Below are positions 10,626 through 22,615 of a stretch of 59,829 bases of DNA, piece after piece. The position numbers and the translations under genes were made by a program. Below the pieces are notes generated by a model. It saw nothing but the letters and a program-made list of their open reading frames with translations. It made no database searches and was not told the origin of the DNA. Numbering within the stretch: the first letter of the stretch is position 1; the number at the start of each line of letters is the position of its first letter. Location: contig JABGQH010000004.1 of assembly GCA_018648865.1 (NCBI GenBank), forward strand, positions 141,146-200,974. Reading direction: 5' to 3'. This DNA comes from Candidatus Peregrinibacteria bacterium. Its GTDB lineage: Bacteria; Patescibacteriota; Gracilibacteria; Peribacterales; Peribacteraceae.

Positions 10626-11936
10626 ATGAAACTACAGGTACGTATCATCGCTCCCGTTGTATTAGCAATTATCTGTGCAGGAACACTGGCTACATTTCTT
10701 TGGTGGCAGTTGTCTCAATCAACACTTTTGTTACAAAGAAGTGCTTCTGAACAAGAGGTCACAATAGATACAAATTCCGATGTTATAAGTACAACAGTCT
10801 TAACTGACCCAAGAGACCAAGCGCTATTCCACCTAAGGCAAGGTGACATGTTAGCCGTTAGAAACGAATGGGCAGGTGCCGCAGCACAGTATGAACAGGC
10901 TGTAGAAGCAGGTGGAGGATTACCAGCACTTAGGAAGATGGCACAAGCACAGTTGCAACGCCGTGACATGAAAGGAGTGCAAGAGACTATAAAGAAAATG
11001 AAAAAGGAAGGTGCAAGAGCAGAAGATCTTCTGCTTCTTGAAAGTATTGTTGCTCTTAGAAAAGGAGAACTAGTACAAACTAAATCACTACTAGAAAATG
11101 CAGATGATTCACCTCAAAAAGAATATGGACTCTCTCTTCTTTCTATAATAGAAGGTAATCACACTGCAGCCAGAGAGCATTTAGACAATGTGATAAACGG
11201 ATGGGAGCCGGTGCTTAGAACATATGCCAGAACATTGGTTGCTGCGTATCAGGAATTTGAATTATTTTCAGAGAGCCAAAACATTCATTTAGTTACTCTG
11301 CTTTCTAGAGCACTAGCTCAAGTACAAGAATGCGAACTTGCTTTGCCACTCCTAATTCAAGTAACTCAAACAAAAGGAGATTACAGAGACGCTTGGATAG
11401 TTCAGGGTTACTGTGAACTAAGTACAGAACGACCAGAGCAAGCACTCGCCTCTTTGGAACAGGCATATAACATTGATCCTCAAAAACCAGAAGTTCAATA
11501 CTTCCTAGGTCGCGCATACGAAGAAACGGGAGACCTAGCTAACGCAAATACATTCTTTCGATATGCACTCGCAAATGGGTTCCGCCCAGAGTCTGAAATA
11601 CGTAGAAGCATTGCAAAGATAGAATATTCAATCGGCAATGTTTCAGAAGCACTACAACAATACGAAGTTCTAACTAGCCTACCAGACGCATCCTTGGAAT
11701 CGTTCCACGGATATATAACTACCAGTGTAGAAGCAGGTAAAACAGAAGAAGCATTCTATATGGCACAAAAAGCAGTAGAAAAGTACCCAGATGATCCATC
11801 TGCGTATGAACTACTTGGATGGGCTGCAATGGAGGCAGATAAGATTGAAGAAGCAAGAGAAGCCCTAGAAACAGCATTAGAAATGAGTCCTTTCCTAGAA
11901 GGCGCAAAAGACAAATTGAAACAATTAGACGATTAA
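10626..11936 (+). CDS. Membrane-anchored tetratricopeptide-repeat protein
   Basis: The 436 residues begin with an N-terminal anchor (about 8-29, VVLAIICAGTLATFLWW). At least six TPR-like helical pairs follow: LRQGDMLAVRNEWAGAAAQYEQAVEAG near 75, LASLEQAYNIDPQKPEVQYFLGRAYEETGDLANA near 280, and PDDPSAYELLGWAAMEADKIEEAREALETALEMSP at the C terminus. TPR arrays are protein-interaction scaffolds; the anchor places this one outside the membrane. It may organise envelope or surface-protein assembly together with the upstream genes, but no partner is shown by sequence. Confidence 0.85.
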   Translation: MKLQVRIIAPVVLAIICAGTLATFLWWQLSQSTLLLQRSASEQEVTIDTNSDVISTTVLTDPRDQALFHLRQGDMLAVRNEWAGAAAQYEQAVEAGGGLPALRKMAQAQLQRRDMKGVQETIKKMKKEGARAEDLLLLESIVALRKGELVQTKSLLENADDSPQKEYGLSLLSIIEGNHTAAREHLDNVINGWEPVLRTYARTLVAAYQEFELFSESQNIHLVTLLSRALAQVQECELALPLLIQVTQTKGDYRDAWIVQGYCELSTERPEQALASLEQAYNIDPQKPEVQYFLGRAYEETGDLANANTFFRYALANGFRPESEIRRSIAKIEYSIGNVSEALQQYEVLTSLPDASLESFHGYITTSVEAGKTEEAFYMAQKAVEKYPDDPSAYELLGWAAMEADKIEEAREALETALEMSPFLEGAKDKLKQLDD

Positions 11937-11937
11937 C

Positions 11938-11966
11938 AAAAAAGACCAGAATTAACCTCTGGCCTT
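11938..11966 (-). terminator. Terminator of the minus-strand RNA (possibly bidirectional)
   Basis: On the minus strand, AAGGCCAGA and TCTGGTCTT pair around loop GGTTAAT and run straight into TTTT. On the plus strand the same stem could end the TPR gene transcript, but the T-tract there is interrupted. Confidence 0.7.
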
Positions 11967-12325
11967 CCTTGTAATTTTTTGATGCTCTCTTTCTCGGACT
12001 ATCAATAGTTTACCGAAGTGACTACTGAGCCGTTTTGTTGAAAGATTGCTTAAGGGGAAGCACCCTCGACCCTCTACCTTGCTGAGGTCTCTTGTTTTTT
12101 CTCGTGACCCTACGAGATCCCCTTACGAGTTCTTTTAAACTCAGCATTCGCCAAGAGAACATGGGGATAGGTGTGTGCATGACTGCCAAGCAACTTCACA
12201 TCGGCGACACGACATCACAGAGCAGAGAGGAGCGTGTACACAAACTAGGTTTATATACACGGTTCTCCCTGCGAGAGAATTTCTATGGAATTAATGATCT
12301 GGGTATTTATTTTTTGTGATTCGTT
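11940..12325 (-). ncRNA. Candidate structured RNA of about 380 nt, family unknown
   Basis: This 539-nt gap has no credible ORF. The minus strand has many stems. The best is a 13-bp hairpin, CGTGTATATAAAC-CTA-GTTTGTGTACACG, near 12233-12261, whose two G-U pairs exist only on the minus strand and so fix the orientation. Others are CTCGT-AGGGTC-ACGAG, AAGGGGA pairing with TCCCCTT about 65 nt away, ACTAT-TG-ATAGT, and the terminator stem at 11942-11966. Size and structure recall housekeeping RNAs. I could not find the RNase P core (GAGGAAAGTCC), the tmRNA acceptor end or the SRP tip, so it stays unassigned. Confidence 0.5.
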
Positions 12326-12442
12326 TAATTACTTTTTTATTAAACAAATCAGATTATTGTACTAAATTTTGCCCAAAAAGGCAATAGCAATATGGGGGAT
12401 GCTGGTTAAAAGTGGTTTAATTAATACATTTAACTGAATTAT

Positions 12443-12469
12443 TGACAGATATACTTTTCATAATATAGT
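12443..12469 (+). promoter_or_regulatory. Promoter upstream of 12476, probably leaderless
   Basis: TTGACA (12443-12448) and TATAGT (12464-12469) are separated by a short 15-nt spacer. The ATG at 12476 falls where transcription should start, which suggests a leaderless mRNA. Confidence 0.5.
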
Positions 12470-12475
12470 TAGCTT

Positions 12476-12883
12476 ATGGAAATTACATTGGTCTCTGGCA
12501 ATAAAACTCCAATATCACCTGATTCATTAGATGAGTCAGCAATTGCCGAACTTAATGAGTTGGTAGGAAAAATGAAATTTGTCGCTTTAGAAGTAGAAAT
12601 TGAATCAGTCAGGACAAACATAGCAATAATATTTAGTAGTGGAATTGAACATAGTAGTGTTCTCTCTTCTCACATTAAATCTGAAGACCAATTTCTAGGA
12701 GCAGGCTTTGTAAAAGGAGATGGTAGTATTATTTTTGATTCTAACTCATGTAGAGAATGGCTAGGAAGAGATGCCCCAGTAGATGAAGAGGATAAGGAAT
12801 CACTGAAATCAGCAATTGAAGATAAAACTATTCCTCTAATTAAATACTTAATTGAAAATAAGCCAAAGTGGCCACTTGAATAA
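12476..12883 (+). CDS. Small protein of unknown function
   Basis: The 135 residues are acidic, with no signal peptide or membrane span. A beta-rich middle (MKFVALEVEIESVRTNIAIIF) is followed by a helical C terminus ending KYLIENKPKWPLE. No family is recognised. It is the first of three small plus-strand genes placed just left of the 13.7-20.9 kb cluster, with its own promoter. These could be cargo of the same accessory region, for example small regulatory or immunity proteins, but nothing in the sequence shows that. Confidence 0.6.
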   Translation: MEITLVSGNKTPISPDSLDESAIAELNELVGKMKFVALEVEIESVRTNIAIIFSSGIEHSSVLSSHIKSEDQFLGAGFVKGDGSIIFDSNSCREWLGRDAPVDEEDKESLKSAIEDKTIPLIKYLIENKPKWPLE

Positions 12884-12906
12884 TTTATAATGTTTATTTA
12901 ACTAAT

Positions 12907-13164
12907 ATGGAATTACCTGAACTAGAAAATAAAGCGCATTCATTATCAATAAGAATGACTCCATTGTATGGAGATAACTCTACAGAGGAACTTGAGGTGA
13001 TTGATGATTATTTTATATCTGAACTAGCAAGAAGTGTTGCTGAGGAGGTACGTGGAGTTTTATTCGATGCACTAATGAAAATTCCTAGGTTAAATACAGG
13101 AACAAGATTGACCTATGTATCAACTGAAAAAGTCATTTGCGCTCTAAAAGAGGCTCTTGGATAA
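12907..13164 (+). CDS. Small protein of unknown function
   Basis: An 85-residue, mostly helical, acidic protein that starts 24 nt after the preceding stop and is probably co-transcribed with it. The segment DYFISELARSVAEEVRGVLFDALMK looks amphipathic. There is no signal peptide, metal-binding motif or recognisable fold. Coding is supported by length, the AT-rich codon style shared with neighbours, and tight spacing. Confidence 0.55.
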   Translation: MELPELENKAHSLSIRMTPLYGDNSTEELEVIDDYFISELARSVAEEVRGVLFDALMKIPRLNTGTRLTYVSTEKVICALKEALG

Positions 13165-13225
13165 AACTTATTTACTTAAGTTAATACTGTAAAACAAACA
13201 ATACATTTGGTATATTCAACTTGAA

Positions 13226-13438
13226 ATGATCGAATCTAATAAAGGATCGGGATTTGAACTCTTAGGGAGAAGATTAAGTGCTGTTAGCACGGATGTTATT
13301 ATTGAAGGAGAAGCAGGTGGAACTTCGGAGGAAATCGCTAAAGCATTGTCCCAAAGGGGAATTGGTGTATCAGCTATAGATGGCATTGATGATGAGGACA
13401 TGCGAGAACTTATAGCATGTATGAGAGATGGCATTTGA
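13226..13438 (+). CDS. Very small protein of unknown function
   Basis: 70 residues, ending in TGA. The pattern IIEGEAGGTSEEIAKALSQRGIGVSAIDGIDDEDMRELI has alternating helix and Gly turns. I do not recognise it. It is the last of the three small genes left of the cluster. Confidence is limited by size. Confidence 0.45.
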   Translation: MIESNKGSGFELLGRRLSAVSTDVIIEGEAGGTSEEIAKALSQRGIGVSAIDGIDDEDMRELIACMRDGI

Positions 13439-13557
13439 TATAGATATATGTTTTTGCACACACTCAAATTCATAACTGTTTCACTGCTTTATTGATCCCC
13501 TGCTACACCTAACTTCGCCCTTTGGGCTTCGCTAGGCGCGCTGTTATACTGAATACG

Positions 13558-13707
13558 ATGCATATGCACTGTAATAAAGTTTTAGGCATGATGATTGCGA
13601 TAATTGTGAGTGTTGCATTGTTAGCAGTTTTAATTCTGTTCACAGGAACAGTAACAATACTTTCTAGTAGTAAAGACTATCAACAAATAGATACTAATCT
13701 ATACTAG
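13558..13707 (+). pseudogene. Truncated copy of the membrane-anchor gene at 21236
   Basis: The ORF codes for 49 residues whose first 36 match the N terminus of the 21236-22615 product. The fragment has MHMHCNKVLGMMIAI and the full gene MNLHINKVFGLILAV; both continue to LILFTGTVTILS. After that the reading diverges into a short unrelated tail and stops, where the full gene continues for more than 400 residues. The first 70 nt differ at many sites, while the next 37 nt are identical. It looks like the left stump of a gene cut or duplicated when the 13.7-20.9 kb cluster arrived. It could still make a small single-span membrane peptide. Confidence 0.6.
13631..13667 (+). repeat. 37-bp direct repeat, left copy (possible attachment site)
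   Basis: Identical over 37 bp to 21309-21345. Its core is the inverted repeat CTGTTC-ACAG-GAACAG. The two copies lie in the same codon context of a truncated and a full-length gene and bracket the seven-gene cluster, 7,678 bp apart. No recombinase gene is seen between them. Confidence 0.75.
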
Positions 13708-13740
13708 AAAAAGAAGTGAACCATTTATTATTATATTACT

Positions 13741-14625
13741 ATGATTATACCGCGACTAAACACGAATCAAAAAATTGCATTTATTAATGTTTCTGATTCA
13801 CCTGCAAAAATAACAAATAAGAATATTGAATCAGGAATATCACGAATCAAAAATCTTGGTTTTGAAGTTGAATTTAGTCAAGATTCAATACTTACAAGAA
13901 TGGATAGCAAAAAACAGGCATTCGAGTTTAATAAACTTGTAAAAAGAGAGGAAATTGGATGCATTATTTGTACGAGCGGTGGGACTAATTGCATATCTAT
14001 ACTTCCATATATAGATTACAACTTGCTAACAAATAATCCAAAAGTAGTTATGGGTACAAGTGATTGCTCACATTTGCTTCAAGCAATAACTCACAAGACA
14101 AATGTGGTTACTATTGATGGCCCTGTTGTGAATAGGCTTGGTGAATGGTCCCAAATAGGGGAAGCAGCTTTTGTTGATTATTGTATTCAAGACAAAAACA
14201 TTATTTATAATAAACCTGAAGAATGGCATATATTTTCTGAGGGAAGTGCAAAGGGTATTTCTTTGTCTGGGAATATAATAACGACTCTATCGATGCTTTT
14301 TCTTCTTAATAAAAACACTCTAGATAATACAATCCTATTTATTGAAGACCACTCAAATGAGAATGAAGAAATGATTCAATACTGGTTTTCAGTATTGCAA
14401 GAAAAAGGTGTATTTGAATCTATAAAAGGAGTGGTATTTGGGACTTTTTCTACTTGCTCAACTTTAGGAATAACACAAATACTATATAACAAATTTTTTA
14501 AGGATCTAAATATTCCTGTTATACAGACTGATTTATTCGGTATTAAGAATTATTGCCCAATTCCTATTGGAGCAAATTGTTCCATTGATACAACACAAGA
14601 AACAATTACTTTTTACTGTGCATAA
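13741..14625 (+). CDS. S66 peptidase-like protein (LdcA/MccF family), catalytic His apparently lost
   Basis: This 294-residue protein has the S66 layout. The N-terminal domain carries IGCIICTSGGTNCISILPYIDY and the nucleophile elbow MGTSDCSHLL (Ser near residue 116). The C-terminal domain carries the catalytic-Glu segment ILFIEDHS and a final PIPIGANCSID that corresponds to the family's PxGxxxxLD. Where LdcA and MccF have FGH before this, the sequence reads LFGIKNYCPIPIG, so the triad His seems replaced by Ile. LdcA trims murein peptides; MccF hydrolyses the amide of microcin C-type aminoacyl nucleotides as self-protection. It converges on the operon below with a 20-nt overlap. An immunity or processing role is inference. 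Confidence 0.8.
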   Translation: MIIPRLNTNQKIAFINVSDSPAKITNKNIESGISRIKNLGFEVEFSQDSILTRMDSKKQAFEFNKLVKREEIGCIICTSGGTNCISILPYIDYNLLTNNPKVVMGTSDCSHLLQAITHKTNVVTIDGPVVNRLGEWSQIGEAAFVDYCIQDKNIIYNKPEEWHIFSEGSAKGISLSGNIITTLSMLFLLNKNTLDNTILFIEDHSNENEEMIQYWFSVLQEKGVFESIKGVVFGTFSTCSTLGITQILYNKFFKDLNIPVIQTDLFGIKNYCPIPIGANCSIDTTQETITFYCA

Positions 14626-15445
14626 TTGCAGAAAGTTCATTTCTAAGAAGCTCAAGGTTATTCTTATGAAGGCTTGCGTCCCCACCTGGCTCGCATACTA
14701 AATAAACATCTTGCTCAAACTCAGACATTGTCCTAACTATATTAGAAAGTACATTCCTTAAAAGATTAATATCAGGAAACTCTTGTTCCTTAGCCGCAAA
14801 TACCTTTCCATGAACATCAAAAGGCCTATTGGCTGTGAGACTTGCTAGATGAAAGTATTTTGCTCTTTGTGCTTTTTTGAGCATTTGCACCAAAAAAGCA
14901 TTATCTGATTGTGTACTTGCATATAAATGCCCAGTATCCAATAATGGATTTTCTGTTTGAAATTCATATGGTTCAGTATTGTAAACTTCTCCTTTCCACA
15001 TTAAAGAAGGAGGCACATTTTCAATAAATACATTTCTACCAAGTGATGATATCCAATTAATTGCATCTTGCAATTCTATATGTCCTCCTTTGCCAAATAG
15101 CTTTCGTTTTGTTGAAAAATTCCATGAAGTTGGTGTATGTAAAATCCAACCTTTTGGACTAAACTTACCATTAATTTTATCTATTATATCACCAATAATA
15201 ACTCGAGATCTTATTCTAATTGCTCTATTGGCTGATGCAATATTCAACAATATTTTATCATCTTCATCATCAAATGATGTTGGAAGATGACCAAACCACG
15301 GTAGCCCCATACTTTCTAATTTTACAATGGCACTATCTTGAACATCATTATCTTCTTGCTTAACAATAAGCTCAAAAAAATCAGGATTTGCATCAACTTT
15401 CTCATGCCAATCAGCCATTGAAGCCTTAATTCCAGTATAAATCAT
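14606..15445 (-). CDS. TIM-barrel protein, sugar isomerase / AP-endonuclease-2-like
   Basis: The 279 residues have the xylose-isomerase-like TIM-barrel pattern of metal ligands at strand ends: FIENVPP (Glu), LLDTGHLYAS (Asp, His), YFHLAS (His) and YLVCEPGGD (Glu). Such proteins isomerise or epimerise sugars, cleave DNA, or modify peptides (MbnB/DUF692 group); the exact class is not clear. It is the last gene of a four-gene minus-strand operon. Its ATG overlaps the TGA of the MurA-like gene (ATGA), giving translational coupling and supporting this start. A tailoring role on a sugar product would fit its neighbours. Confidence 0.72.
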   Translation of the reverse strand: MIYTGIKASMADWHEKVDANPDFFELIVKQEDNDVQDSAIVKLESMGLPWFGHLPTSFDDEDDKILLNIASANRAIRIRSRVIIGDIIDKINGKFSPKGWILHTPTSWNFSTKRKLFGKGGHIELQDAINWISSLGRNVFIENVPPSLMWKGEVYNTEPYEFQTENPLLDTGHLYASTQSDNAFLVQMLKKAQRAKYFHLASLTANRPFDVHGKVFAAKEQEFPDINLLRNVLSNIVRTMSEFEQDVYLVCEPGGDASLHKNNLELLRNELSAIMHSKK

Positions 15446-16764
15446 GATAGAATTGAAATTTTAAATCCTAACGATCTCATTTTTTCAAAAATATCTGAAT
15501 ATCCCCTTTGCATATAATGCGCATTTCTTATAATAACAGGTTGTTGAAAATACGATGCTGTTAGCAAAGCGCTAATAGCACAGCGAAGATTTTGCGCCTC
15601 TAGCTCATAAACAGAATTACCATTCTTACGACTTATCGGAGATTGAACATCAGCTCTATCCCCAACTCTTTTTACAGAGACATTATATGCCTTAAAATGC
15701 TCAAGATGCGAAAATCGATCAGAAAATCTATGATCGATAATCCGAAATCTATCGGCCATGTGAAGCAATAGTGCAGATAGAATAGGTTGACTATCTGATC
15801 CAATTTTAGGGTATGGTCCTGTTTCAAGGGTTACCATATCGTGTCTTTCATTTTGAGGGAATGGATTCTGCTCAAGCCATTGTCCCTTATGATTAAATGA
15901 GTCTCCAGCAATCTCTTTTATAAAATCTATTTCCTCAAAAGAGTATGGACTGGAGAATCTGACTTTTAAATTTGAATCAGTCAAATAGCCTAATGAAATA
16001 TAGGTTAAGGCCTCTTCAATATCACTGCGAACAATTCTAATAACTCTTCCAACATCTTGACTCTCTACATTATTTACAATTATTTTCTCATTCTCTACAG
16101 CAATATTACATCCACATTGGTTCATAAAAGAAATTAACTCAAGCACCTCTGTTCGCAAATGAGCATTCTCAATTATTGTTTCAGATTTACAATTAGATGC
16201 TAGAATCATTGCATTTTCAGTTCCTGTTGTAGTTTGACAGGGGAAAGCCACAATAGATTTAGATTGAATATTTTCACTCTTTACAATGCTAATATGTCTT
16301 TGAGTTTCATTTACATCACATCCAAGAGATCGGAATGCATCTAAATGATAATCAAACTTCCTTGTACCAATTTTGCATCCTCCTACCTCAGTGGGAAAAA
16401 GAACACTACCGAATTTTGCCAATAATACTGACATTAGCAGAACTGATATTCTGGTTTTATGTATAAGGTCATCAGGAATTTGATTGCATGTAATGCCTCG
16501 AGTAATACTTAATTTCCCAACCTCCCTATCAAATGAATACTCTCCACCCATTGCTTCCAATAAATCCAACGTTGATTGCACATCTGCAATATTCGGAATA
16601 TTTTCTAGAGTTATATCACATTTATCATGAATAAAAGAATACATAATCATAGGCAATGCAGCATTCTTTGCCCCCCTAGTTTCAATTATTCCATCTGTTT
16701 CATATGGAAATTGGGAAATGTGCATATCACAATGGTCTACAAAATCTGATCTAGGAGTTTCCAT
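15442..16764 (-). CDS. MurA-like enolpyruvyl transferase
   Basis: The 440-residue protein has the EPSP-synthase/MurA fold and keeps MurA's catalytic set. It has GAKNAALP (Lys22, Asn23 of E. coli MurA), GGCKIGTRKFDYHLDAFRSLG (Cys115, Arg120), TGPYPKIGSDSQ (Asp305 region) and AQNLRCAISALL (Arg397). MurA transfers enolpyruvate from PEP to the 3-OH of UDP-GlcNAc, the first step of peptidoglycan synthesis. Overall sequence is divergent and it sits in an LpxC-containing operon, so I infer a specialised paralogue. The start at 16764 overlaps the lpxC-like gene by 14 nt; MHISQF (16725) is an alternative that resembles normal MurA starts. Confidence 0.85.
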   Translation of the reverse strand: METPRSDFVDHCDMHISQFPYETDGIIETRGAKNAALPMIMYSFIHDKCDITLENIPNIADVQSTLDLLEAMGGEYSFDREVGKLSITRGITCNQIPDDLIHKTRISVLLMSVLLAKFGSVLFPTEVGGCKIGTRKFDYHLDAFRSLGCDVNETQRHISIVKSENIQSKSIVAFPCQTTTGTENAMILASNCKSETIIENAHLRTEVLELISFMNQCGCNIAVENEKIIVNNVESQDVGRVIRIVRSDIEEALTYISLGYLTDSNLKVRFSSPYSFEEIDFIKEIAGDSFNHKGQWLEQNPFPQNERHDMVTLETGPYPKIGSDSQPILSALLLHMADRFRIIDHRFSDRFSHLEHFKAYNVSVKRVGDRADVQSPISRKNGNSVYELEAQNLRCAISALLTASYFQQPVIIRNAHYMQRGYSDIFEKMRSLGFKISILS

Positions 16765-17650
16765 TTTTCAAAAGTGAAGTGGCAATGCGTCGTGCAAGGG
16801 CATTGTTTATTGCGTGCCCAGTTCTAAAGAGTTTAATTGTAATACGAGGAGACAGCTCAATATTTAATACATTTAAATCACCTAAGAAATCTAATATTTT
16901 ATGCCTTGCAACCTCATTTTCATGTCGAGTTTTATCCGTATTCCAAGAAGAGTAAATATTAACATTTTTATTTTCTCCAGTAAAAATTGCACCTTTTAAC
17001 CGAGACTTTGTTTCTTCAATTACTTCTTCTGATTCGATGGTAAATGGAAATGATGTTCTAGCATTTGCAATTTCCCTTCTATAATCTTCTAAACAACTAA
17101 ATTTAAATATATATTCTTGTTTCAGTATTCTACTATCAGGGTAGGAAACAGTTGATTGGATGGTCATAACATCAGAATCGGATGGTTCTATCTGAACAAA
17201 TCTACTAGAATCACCTTGCGCTACTTGTCTAACTGTCTCTGTTACCTCAAGAACATCAACTTCTCTCCGTATTAATTCAATTTCAGACTCAATAAGTTGC
17301 ATATAGCCTTCAGCAGAACCATCAAGAATTGGAACCTCATTGCCTTCTTCGAATACGATATTAAGATTCCGAATATTCAATGCATGTAATGCAGAAAGTA
17401 AATGTTCTATAGTCATTGCAATAATTTGATCACCTTCAACAATTGAAGTTGTTCTTTGCTCTGTAGAAACAGCAAAAGGATCAATCTTGTATCTCTTTCC
17501 CTCTTGAACTACATATAGTCCATCATTTTCAATATTATCTTCAACTATAATCACATTTCTTTTGCCAGAATGAAATCCAATACCATCAAGGATAACAGGA
17601 GTTTTTAAAATGTACTCATCAGACATCTGTTTTGAAACTGAAAAACTCAT
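16751..17650 (-). CDS. LpxC-like UDP-3-O-acyl-GlcNAc deacetylase
   Basis: A 299-residue LpxC with the zinc and catalytic motifs intact: GIGFHSGKR, TIEHLLSALHAL (His79 of E. coli LpxC), VPILDGSAEGY, ARHKILDFLGDL (His238 and Asp242) and RTGHAINNALARR (His265). LpxC removes the N-acetyl group from UDP-3-O-acyl-GlcNAc in lipid A synthesis. No other lipid A gene is in the window and CPR bacteria generally lack lipid A, so the substrate here is likely another 3-O-substituted UDP-GlcNAc, for instance the product of the adjacent MurA-like enzyme (inference). ATGA overlap with the upstream PheT-like gene fixes the start. Confidence 0.9.
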   Translation of the reverse strand: MSFSVSKQMSDEYILKTPVILDGIGFHSGKRNVIIVEDNIENDGLYVVQEGKRYKIDPFAVSTEQRTTSIVEGDQIIAMTIEHLLSALHALNIRNLNIVFEEGNEVPILDGSAEGYMQLIESEIELIRREVDVLEVTETVRQVAQGDSSRFVQIEPSDSDVMTIQSTVSYPDSRILKQEYIFKFSCLEDYRREIANARTSFPFTIESEEVIEETKSRLKGAIFTGENKNVNIYSSWNTDKTRHENEVARHKILDFLGDLNVLNIELSPRITIKLFRTGHAINNALARRIATSLLKNGNS

Positions 17651-18948
17651 AATAATTTGGTGGGCAAAGATAATTCTGCAAAACCGGTTTTTAATCTTTG
17701 TTTGTATTTCTTTGCTACATCCTTTGATATTACGCCAAGTACTCCTATGGCTAATCCATCAGGAGATAATATTTCAAAGCCTCCACTATCAAATCGATCA
17801 TCAGAACCATGAGACAAAGAAATTTCTTGATTATATGTAACGCCAATTGAATGATGTAATCCAAAATATAAATCATTAATATCAAGCCCTTGATCTACAA
17901 CCATTAAAGCTAAATTCATGTAAAAGCCTTCCTTTTTTGACACTGACCCTACTTCAAAAATTCTGTGAGGTAACCTTATGTGCTGTCTCCCCTTCTCATA
18001 GGCTATCAATGAGTGAAATAGCGATTGTCTAAAGGCAAGGCTTGGATTTCCTCGTTTGTCATTTGCTGAAATTCCAATTGACAATGGATCAGATATTTTT
18101 CTACAAGACAGTAAGTTGGGTAATCTTACCTCTTTGTATCCTTGCAATGTAAATCTATTCTTTAATTCAAGATCCTTCGTTCCATCAGGTTCTAGATCTG
18201 ATTTATGTTTAGGCAATAGTAAAGTACTATTTGATCTAATTTTGCTAATGAAAAAATTAAAAATGTCCTCAAGAACGTCACTTGATGATGTAACATCAAT
18301 TCTGAAAAATGGAGAATTAACTAAAATTGTTGAATCTAATAAGCGGATATCTGTATATCCATATGATTTTAACGCTTTAATAATATCATCGTCTTCTAAT
18401 TCAATTCCAAGTAAATTCCCTATTGAACTTCTAGTCAATACAAGTGGTTTTGGATATTCATTAACATTACGCATTACCTCATCAGATGTTTCAATATTCA
18501 CTTGAGACAATGGTTGTTCATCAAAGAGATCGGAAATAATTACTCTTAATAACGCGGCAGTTAGAAATGGTTCATCGGAATCAACTATCACATGCTCCTT
18601 TTCAAGCTTAATCCTAATTTTACTACTGAAATAGTGTAGAACATTCGCAATAAACTCATTGGTTATTAATTCAGAAAAGTTAATTTCTTCCGGCGAAGAT
18701 ATTGATGCACTTGATATACTTAAATCACCTTCTAATTTTGTCATTGTAATTGGTTGAAAATCAGGTGATTCTATATCTTGATTAAGAAGATTTAATTGCC
18801 TACGAATTCCGATAATAGAAAATAGATCTACGCGAGCAACATCTAGTAATTCAATCGTGTTACCACTTTTATTTCGGCACTTTAGCTGATCTTTATAATC
18901 AATTAGAGAATCTCTAAGCTTTGTATCTGGAATTGAAATCAGTGGCAT
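17647..18948 (-). CDS. PheRS beta-subunit-like protein lacking a normal editing domain
   Basis: The 433 residues resemble archaeal-type PheT. An N-terminal segment has ELLDVARVDLFSIIGIRRQLNLL. A B5 domain (about 165-240) has LTRSSIGNLLGIELEDDDI, LKSYGYTDIRLLD and SPFFRIDVTSSSDVLEDIF. The catalytic-like core has RFTLQGYKEVRLPNLLS, LAFRQSLFHSLI, HRIFEVGSVSKKEG and a C-terminal AIGVLGVISKDV. It is shorter than typical archaeal PheT, and the B3/B4 editing region is reduced to about 70 unlike residues. The matching alpha-like gene is the divergent neighbour at 19076. It heads the minus-strand operon. It probably aminoacylates something other than tRNA-Phe, or is non-canonical. Confidence 0.8.
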   Translation of the reverse strand: MPLISIPDTKLRDSLIDYKDQLKCRNKSGNTIELLDVARVDLFSIIGIRRQLNLLNQDIESPDFQPITMTKLEGDLSISSASISSPEEINFSELITNEFIANVLHYFSSKIRIKLEKEHVIVDSDEPFLTAALLRVIISDLFDEQPLSQVNIETSDEVMRNVNEYPKPLVLTRSSIGNLLGIELEDDDIIKALKSYGYTDIRLLDSTILVNSPFFRIDVTSSSDVLEDIFNFFISKIRSNSTLLLPKHKSDLEPDGTKDLELKNRFTLQGYKEVRLPNLLSCRKISDPLSIGISANDKRGNPSLAFRQSLFHSLIAYEKGRQHIRLPHRIFEVGSVSKKEGFYMNLALMVVDQGLDINDLYFGLHHSIGVTYNQEISLSHGSDDRFDSGGFEILSPDGLAIGVLGVISKDVAKKYKQRLKTGFAELSLPTKLL

Positions 18949-19075
18949 AATAATATTCGCAAAGATAAAGGTTATTTATTGTAAACAAAGCCAAAAAATA
19001 AGTAAATAAAACTTACCTTTAGTTTATTAACAATTTAATTGCTATTCTTGTCATTATTGATAATAATTCTATACA

Positions 19076-19867
19076 ATGTCTGAATCTAATTTATTAAATG
19101 CAAATATTGTACCTAGGCCACCTTGTGAGTATGGAATTCATCCAGAAACTGCCTTAGAGGAAGATATAACCAAGATTATGCGAGGCTTTGGCATAAAGAG
19201 GGTCTTTTCTAATAGTTTAATGACAGAGCATCAAGTTTTTGACATGCTACAATTTCCACAACATTCACCAGTTAGAAACAATACTAATGTTGTATATGCC
19301 AATGTAGAACAAAACAGTGAACAACATTTAATGGGAAGCTGTGATGAGGTATCTCTTTTACATGAAAAACGATTTGGCTACAAAAGGGATCTTGAAAAAG
19401 CTAAAAGGGTTATGTTTGTGAGTCATACAACTGCAATTACTATTGAGCACTTAATGCAAAAAGTAGAAACAATTTATACAATATCAAAAACATACAGAAA
19501 TAAAAAAGAGCGACGTGAGAAGACACATGTTGAGCTTGTTCTAATTGATCAATCATTACCTGAAATAATTACATTTATGCAAACACTCTATTCCTTGTTG
19601 TTGCAACAAATGGTAGAGCTTGGAATTACTTCAGACTTTTACTATTTTTGCGAGCCTTCATTTAGTTTTCATATGTCTCAGGGAGGAAGGGATTTGCCAA
19701 TGGGGTCTGGAGGATATGTAAGAGAAGAACTATTTCAAATTATTACAAGAAATACTTTAGTTAAGCCAAATTCTATTGCATTAATTGTTTTGCCGTTTCA
19801 GAAAATACTAAATATGAGAATAGGAGAAGATCCATTAGATTATGATCTAGATTATAATTCAATTTAA
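19076..19867 (+). CDS. PheRS alpha-subunit-like class II synthetase domain
   Basis: The 263-residue protein follows the PheS core in order: HPETALEEDITKIMRGFGIKRV, LQFPQHSPVRNN (motif 1 region, as NFDALN.P..HPAR), FVSHTTAITIEHL (as LRTHTTA), ISKTYRNKKERREKTHVEL (motif 2), FYYFCEPSFSF (as FPFTEPS) and LPMGSGGYVREELF. The motif 3 segment, normally GLGIERLAM, reads VLPFQKILNM, so the ATP-contacting Arg and the glycines are altered. There is no N-terminal tRNA-binding coiled coil. Together with the beta-like gene across the divergent promoter it suggests a repurposed PheRS heterodimer for amino-acid activation. Confidence 0.78.
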   Translation: MSESNLLNANIVPRPPCEYGIHPETALEEDITKIMRGFGIKRVFSNSLMTEHQVFDMLQFPQHSPVRNNTNVVYANVEQNSEQHLMGSCDEVSLLHEKRFGYKRDLEKAKRVMFVSHTTAITIEHLMQKVETIYTISKTYRNKKERREKTHVELVLIDQSLPEIITFMQTLYSLLLQQMVELGITSDFYYFCEPSFSFHMSQGGRDLPMGSGGYVREELFQIITRNTLVKPNSIALIVLPFQKILNMRIGEDPLDYDLDYNSI

Positions 19868-19879
19868 TAACTTTACATC

Positions 19880-20926
19880 ATGAAACCACAAAATGATTTC
19901 AGGCTTTACACTGAGAACCTAACTCGCGCAAGGGAAGCAATTTTCCAAGGACAGAAAGGTTTGCCAATACAAGAATACCGTACCATGTTACAGAATGCTT
20001 ATTCTGGTAGACCAATAAGCTTTGAAAAGGATTGTGAAATTTTTAATTTTCAAGAATCAGCAGCTTTAACTGACGTGTTTCATTTGGCTGAGCAGCATTA
20101 TCAGCTATGTCAAAATATTAGTGATACAAGATTAGATACAATAGAAAAGGCATCACTAATCATAGGATGTGGACAAGGAAGATTATTAGATGTACAAGTT
20201 GCACTTTGTAAAATGCTAGGGATAAAAGAAATACATCTTAATGAGCTATCAGCCGAAAATATGTCTATAGCAAAAAGAAAAGCTGATGATATTGATACCT
20301 CTGATTGTAATTTACAGTTCCATACAGGAGATTTTCAGACACAAGAATTTGACAAAATATTTTCAGTTATCTTATCGTTTCGATCTGTTACATCAGAAAT
20401 ATTTGACCCCACAAGTTCAGATCATTATTTAGAATCTAGATATAATCTTTATAAAAGAATATCGCAACTACTCTCTCCTGATGGAGTTTTTATTGAAGAT
20501 GTTCCTGATTGTGATGCGCCAGGGTTTTATCACATACTTAACACAAGAACTAGAGAAATGTTAAAACAAAAAGGAATACTATCTGCAATTAATGATAGAT
20601 TGTTACTCACGGTATCATGTCACTTAGGAAATCAGAAAATGAAATTTCCATATCAATTAAGAGTAGCAAATCCTATAGGTATTGATTTATTAGAAAAGAA
20701 AAAAGTTGGATTAAGTCCTATGTATTCTACAACCAGAATTGTTCCTGAAAAATCCCAGCTATCATTGTCAGACGCTGCTCATATACTTAATAACTCAGAT
20801 AGCATTCAACAAGCTAGAAAGGTATTTGCGCAAAGACTTGCATCGGGTCAAGTTGAATTCTGTGGTGATTTTTCTGATAAGAATCAATACAGAAGAATGA
20901 CTTGCTATTCCAAAGATTCTCAATAG
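19880..20926 (+). CDS. SAM-dependent methyltransferase-like protein
   Basis: 348 residues. The central Rossmann domain has LIIGCGQGRLLDV (motif I, near residue 90), an acidic strand 2 end IHLNELSAENMSIAKRK (motif II) and LQFHTGDFQTQEFDKIF. A catalytic-region equivalent SQLLSPDGVFIEDVPD follows. The flanking N- and C-terminal regions are not recognised. It starts 12 nt after the PheRS-alpha-like stop and so is co-transcribed. It probably methylates a small molecule made by the cluster; the substrate is unknown. Confidence 0.75.
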   Translation: MKPQNDFRLYTENLTRAREAIFQGQKGLPIQEYRTMLQNAYSGRPISFEKDCEIFNFQESAALTDVFHLAEQHYQLCQNISDTRLDTIEKASLIIGCGQGRLLDVQVALCKMLGIKEIHLNELSAENMSIAKRKADDIDTSDCNLQFHTGDFQTQEFDKIFSVILSFRSVTSEIFDPTSSDHYLESRYNLYKRISQLLSPDGVFIEDVPDCDAPGFYHILNTRTREMLKQKGILSAINDRLLLTVSCHLGNQKMKFPYQLRVANPIGIDLLEKKKVGLSPMYSTTRIVPEKSQLSLSDAAHILNNSDSIQQARKVFAQRLASGQVEFCGDFSDKNQYRRMTCYSKDSQ

Positions 20927-21235
20927 TCAGGAGGCAATAATCTTAATATTCATTGTCATAATCTGCTCAACTTATTTGCATATTGTATGCAGTACCAAAA
21001 AGTTGGGGGAAGTGAATTTGTACTTGCCATTAGAATATAAGCAAAAAATAACGGAGATACATTAAACCCACAATAAATAATATTTGGTTCTAACCTCAAA
21101 TTTGCTTATCCTTTTATTTGGCTTGTATAAGCCGTAAAGTTTATGGCTCCCCATCCAAGAATAGAACCACAATCGCTACAATAGATTAATACACCAATTA
21201 TTCCTGATTTGTTCCCAAGTGCTACACTTAACACG
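20927..21235. other. Gene-free gap at the right edge of the cluster
   Basis: 309 nt of AT-rich sequence with no ORF I trust. The last 35 nt share a loose GCTACAC-TTAACACGATG resemblance with the bases before the truncated copy at 13558, as expected if both derive from one promoter/start region. No strong hairpin or promoter is evident. Confidence 0.5.
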
Positions 21236-22615
21236 ATGAATCTGCATATTAATAAGGTATTTGGCTTAATCTTAGCAGTCGCAGGAAGCATAGCCCTGCT
21301 AACTATTCTAATTCTGTTCACAGGAACAGTAACAATACTTTCTAGACACCCTGCTGATTTTTTACCTGCTGCAGAAACAGTTCTATTTATGCAGAATGTA
21401 AATAGTGATGATGTTGTTAAATATTCAGATGTGTTTGATGGTTTAATTAAAATTGAGGAAACGGAACCGTTCTATTTATCATTAATTAATACGAATGACG
21501 AACAGGAATTGTTTTGGTTTAGTAAGTCTAAGGCAAAACCACAGCTCTCTAATCATTGGCCGTACCAAGTTAATTCATTTTCTGGGGCTGCATTGCCAGA
21601 AATAAATAAGGTAGATCGGCTGTCTAATCAAAATGCTTATCGAGTTTTTCAAAAATATATTCATCCAAATCAAAAATGGATATATGCCAAACGTAGCATG
21701 GTTCCAAATAGGGATTTACTAGAGCTTGCGGCAATTGATCAATTATTATTAAGGGATGCATCAGATATTGGAATTACTGAAAATGAGCCAAATAAAGCGG
21801 TATTTCAGCTATTTTCTGATGCTCAATACAAATCTAATATCAAAAATCCTCCAAAGGTAAATGGGGACACAGCAATTAGTTTATCTATATTTAATTTAAG
21901 CAAGAGGCTAAATGAATTAAGAAAAAATATGTCTACCAATCAAAGTGATTTCTTGTTTTCTCTACTTCGCAAAAAGACATTTGATATGTTTGGATCCTCT
22001 GTAAGTTTTGAATACGACATTATGCCACTGATGCAAAACGAGATGGCATTTTTGCTAGAGCAGAATGGATCTGGGGGAACATTGTTTTGTATTTCTGGGA
22101 ATGGTGAAAGGTCATCAACTGTAGAGCGCACGTTGCAAAGAATGACTAAGGGTAGGTATTCAGAATTATCTTCTAATGAATTAATAGATATTCAATTAAG
22201 TAACAGATTTAGAATCAAAACGCTTAAGAGTATTCCATACGACTTAGAGAGTGATGAAAGTGAATACAAAGGGTGGCAGATTAAATCTTTACAGGGATCT
22301 ACTGAAATGAGTGGGTTATTTGCTGCTCAAAAAGACAAGAAATACGTTTTATCTAATAGTAAAATTAAGTTGATAGAAGCAATTGATAAAGAAGATGAGA
22401 ACGCGATGTTTATAACGAAAGATAGCGAGATTATAGGTGGCAAAACGCTATCTGCGGGGTGGATAAGCTTATCTAAGCTATCCTCTGTTATTAATAATGA
22501 AGAGCTAGAATGGAGAAAAGGACTACTTTATTTCTTAAATCAGGAGGCAAAAGAGCTAGAATGGAAAGAGGAAGCCAGAGGAAATATAAGAAGAGTTGAA
22601 ATAGAAGCTAAATAG
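21236..22615 (+). CDS. Membrane-anchored protein of unknown function (full-length copy)
   Basis: I start at ATG 21236 (MNLHINKVFGLILAVAGSIA), because the truncated paralogue at 13558 begins at the same place; an in-frame TTG lies 27 nt upstream. The 459-residue product has one N-terminal membrane helix (about 9-35, ending LILFTGTVTILS) and a long extracytoplasmic domain of mixed strands and helices with no motif I recognise. It precedes secF by 60 nt in the same direction, where secD often lies, but it is not SecD. Confidence 0.75.
   Translation: MNLHINKVFGLILAVAGSIALLTILILFTGTVTILSRHPADFLPAAETVLFMQNVNSDDVVKYSDVFDGLIKIEETEPFYLSLINTNDEQELFWFSKSKAKPQLSNHWPYQVNSFSGAALPEINKVDRLSNQNAYRVFQKYIHPNQKWIYAKRSMVPNRDLLELAAIDQLLLRDASDIGITENEPNKAVFQLFSDAQYKSNIKNPPKVNGDTAISLSIFNLSKRLNELRKNMSTNQSDFLFSLLRKKTFDMFGSSVSFEYDIMPLMQNEMAFLLEQNGSGGTLFCISGNGERSSTVERTLQRMTKGRYSELSSNELIDIQLSNRFRIKTLKSIPYDLESDESEYKGWQIKSLQGSTEMSGLFAAQKDKKYVLSNSKIKLIEAIDKEDENAMFITKDSEIIGGKTLSAGWISLSKLSSVINNEELEWRKGLLYFLNQEAKELEWKEEARGNIRRVEIEAK
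21309..21345 (+). repeat. 37-bp direct repeat, right copy (possible attachment site)
   Basis: Identical to 13631-13667 and in the same reading frame position (codons for LILFTGTVTILS). It contains CTGTTC-ACAG-GAACAG. The flanks differ in silent and amino-acid-changing positions, so the exact identity stands out. Confidence 0.75.

Follow-up and report, generated by a model that had tools for sequence, protein, structure and literature searches.

Introduction

To our knowledge, few specialised pathways have been described in Patescibacteria, whose genomes are very small, as is also seen in the genome sizes across the phylum. One such genome (1.13 Mb, 99.97% complete) carries, within the 59,829-nt stretch analysed here (the window, on contig C20; coordinates below are window positions), neighbouring genes that resemble enzymes of cell wall synthesis, lipid A synthesis and translation, and the question is what proteins of such different backgrounds could be doing together. 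The interest of the locus lies in this unusual gene combination in a reduced genome. If active, such a dedicated set of wall, lipid A and translation enzymes turned to other uses, in a Patescibacterium without LpxB, would constitute a new pathway for nucleotide sugars and show the PheRS fold in a role not seen before.

Results

Gene content and arrangement

Re-calling of the genes gave seven open, intact frames at 13741-20926 (Table 1), with the families and arrangement that an earlier, sequence-only reading of this DNA had described. Four of them form an operon on the minus strand in the order PheT-like, LpxC-like, MurA-like and TIM-barrel gene, with successive overlaps of 4, 14 and 4 nt. The PheS-like gene and, 12 nt further on, the methyltransferase gene make up a divergent pair on the plus strand, and the S66-like gene, also on the plus strand, converges on the TIM-barrel gene and overlaps it by 20 nt. 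The family assignments are weak for the TIM-barrel and methyltransferase proteins. No transporter, regulator or obvious exporter was evident among the cassette genes; promoter-like sites in the region did not exceed chance expectation, and terminator-like sites did not clearly do so.

Table 1. Coordinates of the cassette genes, the inserted segment and its repeats (window positions)
Feature	Position	Strand	Evidence or remark
Inserted segment, ~9 kb	12236..21208	.	TPR gene (10626-11936) and the conserved 300-nt element downstream of it on one side, 459-aa gene on the other
Left direct repeat, truncated 5′ end of the 459-aa gene	13542-13667	+	72% over 126 nt
S66 / MccF-LdcA-like, 294 aa	13741-14625	+	Pfam S66, 9.2e-24
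Putative TIM-barrel metalloenzyme, AP-endonuclease-2/CbiR-like, 279 aa	14606-15445	-	NCBIfam CbiR, 6.3e-5
MurA-like enolpyruvyl transferase, 440 aa	15442-16764	-	EPSP_synthase/MurA, E 1.8e-33
LpxC-like Zn deacetylase, 299 aa	16751-17650	-	LpxC, E 5.7e-48
PheT-like, 433 aa	17647-18948	-	B5, 2.2e-8
PheS-like, 263 aa	19076-19867	+	tRNA-synt_2d, 3.8e-16
Class I methyltransferase-like, 348 aa	19880-20926	+	Pfam Methyltransf_25, 4.7e-5, under curated cut-off; GCGQG motif
Right direct repeat, intact 5′ end of the 459-aa gene (21236-22615)	21220-21345	+	72% over 126 nt

The cassette is an insertion in a conserved locus

The gap between the TPR gene and the 459-aa gene is 9.3 kb in this genome. In four relatives (G001, G008, G022 and G012), the flanking genes keep their order, the TPR gene being followed by the 459-aa gene after 0.1-1.2 kb with no cluster genes between them, and the cluster is absent as well from G017 and from G004, the latter with a local rearrangement. 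Because these six relatives keep the flanking genes without the cassette, the cassette is an insertion of ~9 kb. The conserved flank, which includes a 300-nt element beside the TPR gene that is common to the relatives, stops at ~12235, and the inserted DNA therefore spans ~12236-21208. An assembly chimera was rejected because both flanks match one conserved locus.

Each of the direct repeats that had been noted around the cluster proved to correspond to the 5′ end of the 459-aa gene, and the match between them includes an exact run of 37 nt (13631-13667). The second copy was found in none of the relatives searched and is confined to this genome. This repeat pattern would follow if a circular element with a short, diverged homologue of the 459-aa gene had integrated by a single crossover (Campbell-type integration); no integrase or transposase was among the genes found. 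The comparison of composition with the flanks that had been proposed earlier shows that the cluster is AT-richer than 33 flanking genes, both in overall GC (0.330 vs 0.367, p = 0.0003) and in GC3 (0.210 vs 0.260, p = 0.0004). Given a locus that is empty in relatives and a composition that differs, we conclude that the cassette is a horizontally acquired island.

The cassette genes are extra paralogues

Family searches of the genome located a canonical murA on contig C9 (E 1.1e-76), a canonical pheS (336 aa) on contig C4, an 824-aa frame with a B5 domain, also on C9, that was taken as canonical pheT, and a canonical murB. The window genes are therefore extra paralogues and not the sole copies, a point on which the earlier proposal had been made to depend. 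Divergence from the resident copies is considerable, the MurA-like protein being 24% identical to the genome's own MurA and the PheS-like protein 18% identical to its own PheS. LpxB was not found in the genome, which makes a conventional role of the LpxC-like protein in lipid A synthesis unlikely. We also considered that spare MurA, LpxC and PheRS copies might confer resistance as duplicated drug targets; this was rejected because there is no sign of a lipid A pathway and the PheS-like protein is unlike a working synthetase.

Catalytic residues are kept in the MurA-like and LpxC-like proteins

In alignments, the MurA-like protein keeps the catalytic set K33-N34, R105, C130, R135, D324, R350, R394 and R420, which we take to correspond to K22, N23, R91, C115, R120, D305, R331, R371 and R397 of E. 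coli MurA. Its score against the TIGR01072 equivalog (226 bits) is under the curated cut-off of 393, and we thus call it MurA-like rather than MurA. The LpxC-like protein, likewise under the cut-off of its equivalog model (131 bits; cut-off 187), keeps E82, H83, T199, H250, K251, D254 and H279, which cover the Zn ligands (H, H and D) and the catalytic E, H and T, and correspond to the LpxC catalytic set E78, H79, T191, H238, D242 and H265 (PMC13342928). Identity of the two proteins to canonical enzymes is about 24-29%.

The LpxC-like protein lacks a GGSL motif that is present in the LpxC of another locus used for comparison (L013, described below). Our own placement from alignments would put the GGSL stretch in LpxC insert II, which forms the acyl-chain tunnel (PMC13342928, PMC13333357), and its loss fits a 3-O substituent that is not an acyl chain. 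Because both proteins keep all catalytic residues, conversion of UDP-GlcNAc to UDP-3-O-enolpyruvyl-glucosamine is plausible, and the earlier assignment of the two as UDP-GlcNAc enzymes gains support from alignment.

The PheS-like and S66-like proteins have lost canonical residues

Profile alignment with 14 canonical PheS showed the PheS-like protein to be a class II core from which the N-terminal tRNA-binding arm and the FHQxEG pocket are missing, with LPF--QK in place of the motif 3 GxGxxR. The motif-2 Arg, HTT and EPS are retained; the predicted structure had a pLDDT of 42. In the PheT-like protein, the B5 match is accompanied by a match to pheT_arch (1.4e-14) and a weak CLM match, and family profiles recognised no B3/4 editing domain. 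With arm, pocket and motif 3 lost from the PheS-like protein, the amino-acid activation that had been ascribed to the pair is unsupported, and its aaRS fold could have adopted other acyl-transfer chemistry.

The S66-like protein, which matches MccF chains at 4e-25, retains the Ser (in GTSD) and the Glu (in IED). The His of the FGH motif completes the Ser-Glu-His triad of S66 enzymes. When the protein was aligned to an S66 relative carrying this motif, FG was followed by a gap and the catalytic His was missing, and the MccF-type processing or immunity function suggested earlier is therefore unsupported.

A weak match of the TIM-barrel protein to CbiR

The sole significant match of the TIM-barrel protein was to the CbiR model (22.6 bits, far under the 105-bit cut-off). 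Pfam, including PF01261, gave no match, and an endonuclease IV profile (29 AP_endonuc_2 proteins) scored -0.8 bits, within the range of shuffled sequences; the structure prediction had a pLDDT of 35. By eye, the motifs GHLP, LHTP, IENVPP, LDTGH, FHLAS, DVHG and EPGG fit the endonuclease IV nine-ligand pattern, with H53, H103, E142, D170xxH173, H199, D209xH211 and E252 as putative metal ligands. CbiR hydrolyses a phosphoribosyl bond (PMC7733943), and the TIM-barrel protein thus appears to be weakly related to a phosphoester-cleaving enzyme.

Distribution in other genomes

The LpxC-like gene was not found in any other genome of the 144 relatives searched. Among 353 genomes of the class, LpxC matches were confined to G533, on a probable contaminant contig, and G508, where the match was a fragment; 380 phylum-wide genomes yielded one further LpxC (G363), in an unrelated context, and the TIM-barrel gene in no other genome (the three genome sets overlap). 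In G363 (L008, 9496-13610), an S66 gene with an intact FGH motif lies ~2.4 kb from the LpxC gene, and the other cluster genes are absent. The G533 contig (its C4; L013), 8 kb long, carries LpxC, radical-SAM-like and outer-membrane-type genes, is unlike its host and is probably contamination.

Matches to the PheS-like protein elsewhere were weak, and one that was inspected (G366) was a canonical PheS. A search of GTDB genome contigs returned five matches, three of which were inspected and were canonical PheS, and the other two look canonical as well; the query alignment for this search held extra rows of artificial PheS-like variants to loosen the patterns, and its coverage beyond Patescibacteria was shallow. 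Viral contigs gave no match to five cassette proteins, the TIM-barrel protein being searched twice, once as a hand-degenerated alignment. On plasmids, the matches listed by a protein search included only canonical-type LpxC at <30% identity, and none for PheT, PheS or the TIM-barrel protein. Diverged PheS-like genes or fragments occur on Glutamicibacter, Azotobacter and Corynebacterium plasmids (L015, L016 and L017) in unrelated contexts, two of them near resistance genes. Co-occurrence of the seven genes, the main check proposed by the sequence-only reading, was found in no genome searched, the search outside Patescibacteria being weak, and literature searches returned no such cluster and no published precedent.

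Discussion

Our preferred reading, at a probability of about one half, is that the locus is an acquired accessory biosynthetic cassette acting on UDP-GlcNAc, with the remaining proteins tailoring the intermediate. From the gene content and the residues kept we infer its substrates, order of steps and product as follows. The MurA-like protein would add an enolpyruvyl ether at O3 of UDP-GlcNAc, and the LpxC-like protein would remove the N-acetyl group, so that the product, UDP-3-O-enolpyruvyl-glucosamine or a near relative of it, carries a free amine. The PheS/PheT-like pair might bind a group or couple it to this intermediate by a non-canonical, tRNA-independent route, the TIM-barrel metalloenzyme could cleave a phosphate-linked bond (for example, to release UMP), and the methyltransferase would decorate the intermediate. 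The cassette thus probably makes an amino-sugar compound, perhaps as a diffusible metabolite, perhaps as a precursor for the envelope.

This reading rests on the tight, overlapping operon, the canonical paralogues elsewhere, the catalytic residues kept in the MurA-like and LpxC-like proteins, the lack of LpxB, the loss of GGSL, the CbiR match and the AT-rich insertion in a conserved locus. As far as sequence can speak to function, it argues for an acquired cassette that would begin with enolpyruvylation and then deacetylation of a UDP-GlcNAc-type substrate; both steps are directly testable with the common substrates UDP-GlcNAc and PEP. Counting against it are the loss of canonical catalytic residues from the PheS-like and S66-like proteins, which means that the pathway may be partly degenerate, the presence of the cluster in no other genome found, a TIM-barrel assignment that is one weak match, and the lack of an obvious transporter or regulator in the cassette.

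Other explanations must be weighed against the same evidence. Because MurA, LpxC and S66 families all use envelope precursors, the cassette might instead make an altered or de-N-acetylated muramic acid precursor for the organism's own peptidoglycan or a surface glycan, such as a free-amine UDP-muramic acid; the MurB encoded in the genome could reduce the enolpyruvyl product, and the cassette has no obvious exporter. However, the S66-like protein lacks its catalytic His, neither the PheRS-like pair nor the methyltransferase has a place in known routes to wall precursors, and relatives live without the cassette, so that we regard envelope modification as possible, if on balance unlikely. The pathway as originally proposed, taken here as one in which the PheRS-like pair activates an amino acid and ligates it to the amine of the sugar, the aminoacylated nucleotide sugar being an antibiotic and the MccF-like protein serving immunity, retains its enolpyruvylation and deacetylation steps (through the catalytic residues), its extra paralogues and its distinct GC, but finds no support for amino-acid activation, the MccF step or co-occurrence. 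The gene content itself, the motif-2 Arg, HTT and EPS kept in the PheS-like protein, and the precedent of an aaRS paralogue, MshC, that joins an amino acid to a glucosamine amine in mycothiol (PMC9736012) argue for it; without motif 3, the pocket residues and the S66 His, we think it quite improbable.

Chance is a further consideration, since the sporadic occurrence of the cluster and the strong divergence of several members (for example, of the PheS-like protein from the resident PheS) might mean that a foreign island has gathered paralogues at random, or holds them in decay, and that they share no pathway. However, none of the seven frames is interrupted, one operon has overlapping genes, and the MurA-like and LpxC-like proteins retain every catalytic residue at their low identity to canonical enzymes, and we consider a chance or decaying collection very improbable. 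A bolder proposal is a previously undescribed pathway built on Raetz logic, in which the MurA-like protein sets the O3 substituent, the LpxC-like protein frees the amine, the PheS/PheT-like pair, although it has no motif 3, uses new chemistry to acylate this amine, and the TIM-barrel protein, as a metal-dependent enzyme, releases UMP, yielding a new amino-sugar metabolite; we consider this decidedly unlikely.

The acquired cassette can be compared with several known systems. The likeness to the lipid A (Raetz) sequence LpxA-LpxC-LpxD-LpxH is one of logic: O3 substitution of UDP-GlcNAc, deacetylation by LpxC, N-substitution and UDP cleavage, as proposed here. Here, however, the O3 substituent would come from PEP through the MurA-like protein, the cassette has no LpxA or LpxD homologue, the genome has no LpxB, and the LpxC-like protein has no GGSL. 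Mycothiol synthesis (MshB, MshC) similarly deacetylates an amino sugar, after which an aaRS-derived protein could attach an amino acid at the freed amine, but MshC is CysRS-derived and catalytically active, whereas the PheRS-like pair lacks motif 3, and the deacetylase here is LpxC-like rather than MshB. Nikkomycin and polyoxin pathways also employ a MurA-type enzyme (NikO-type enolpyruvyl transferases) in specialised metabolism; the MurA-like protein, in contrast, scores far better against true MurA (E 6e-44) than against NikO (E 6e-12), and other nikkomycin-type genes were not recognised in the cassette. With MccF of microcin C, the S66-like protein shares the fold family and the Ser and Glu of the triad but not the His, and no MccB-type or other microcin genes were recognised. 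The TIM-barrel protein resembles the CbiR / AP endonuclease 2 superfamily in its metal-ligand motifs and in a weak but significant profile match, yet falls well short of the CbiR cut-off and has no match to the endonuclease IV profile.

Other features of the region

Three small ORFs (135, 85 and 70 aa) lie at 12476-13164 and 13226-13438, in the inserted segment to the left of the repeat; neither of the larger two (135 and 85 aa) had a family match. The ~300-nt element (11934-12235, minus strand) is non-coding and recurs in relatives, where it is conserved in the interval that separates the TPR and 459-aa genes. It had no match in Rfam, folds well (z -2.6), shows 28 pairs with compensatory changes among four sequences and ends in a strong terminator, and we consider it a candidate for a new structured RNA.
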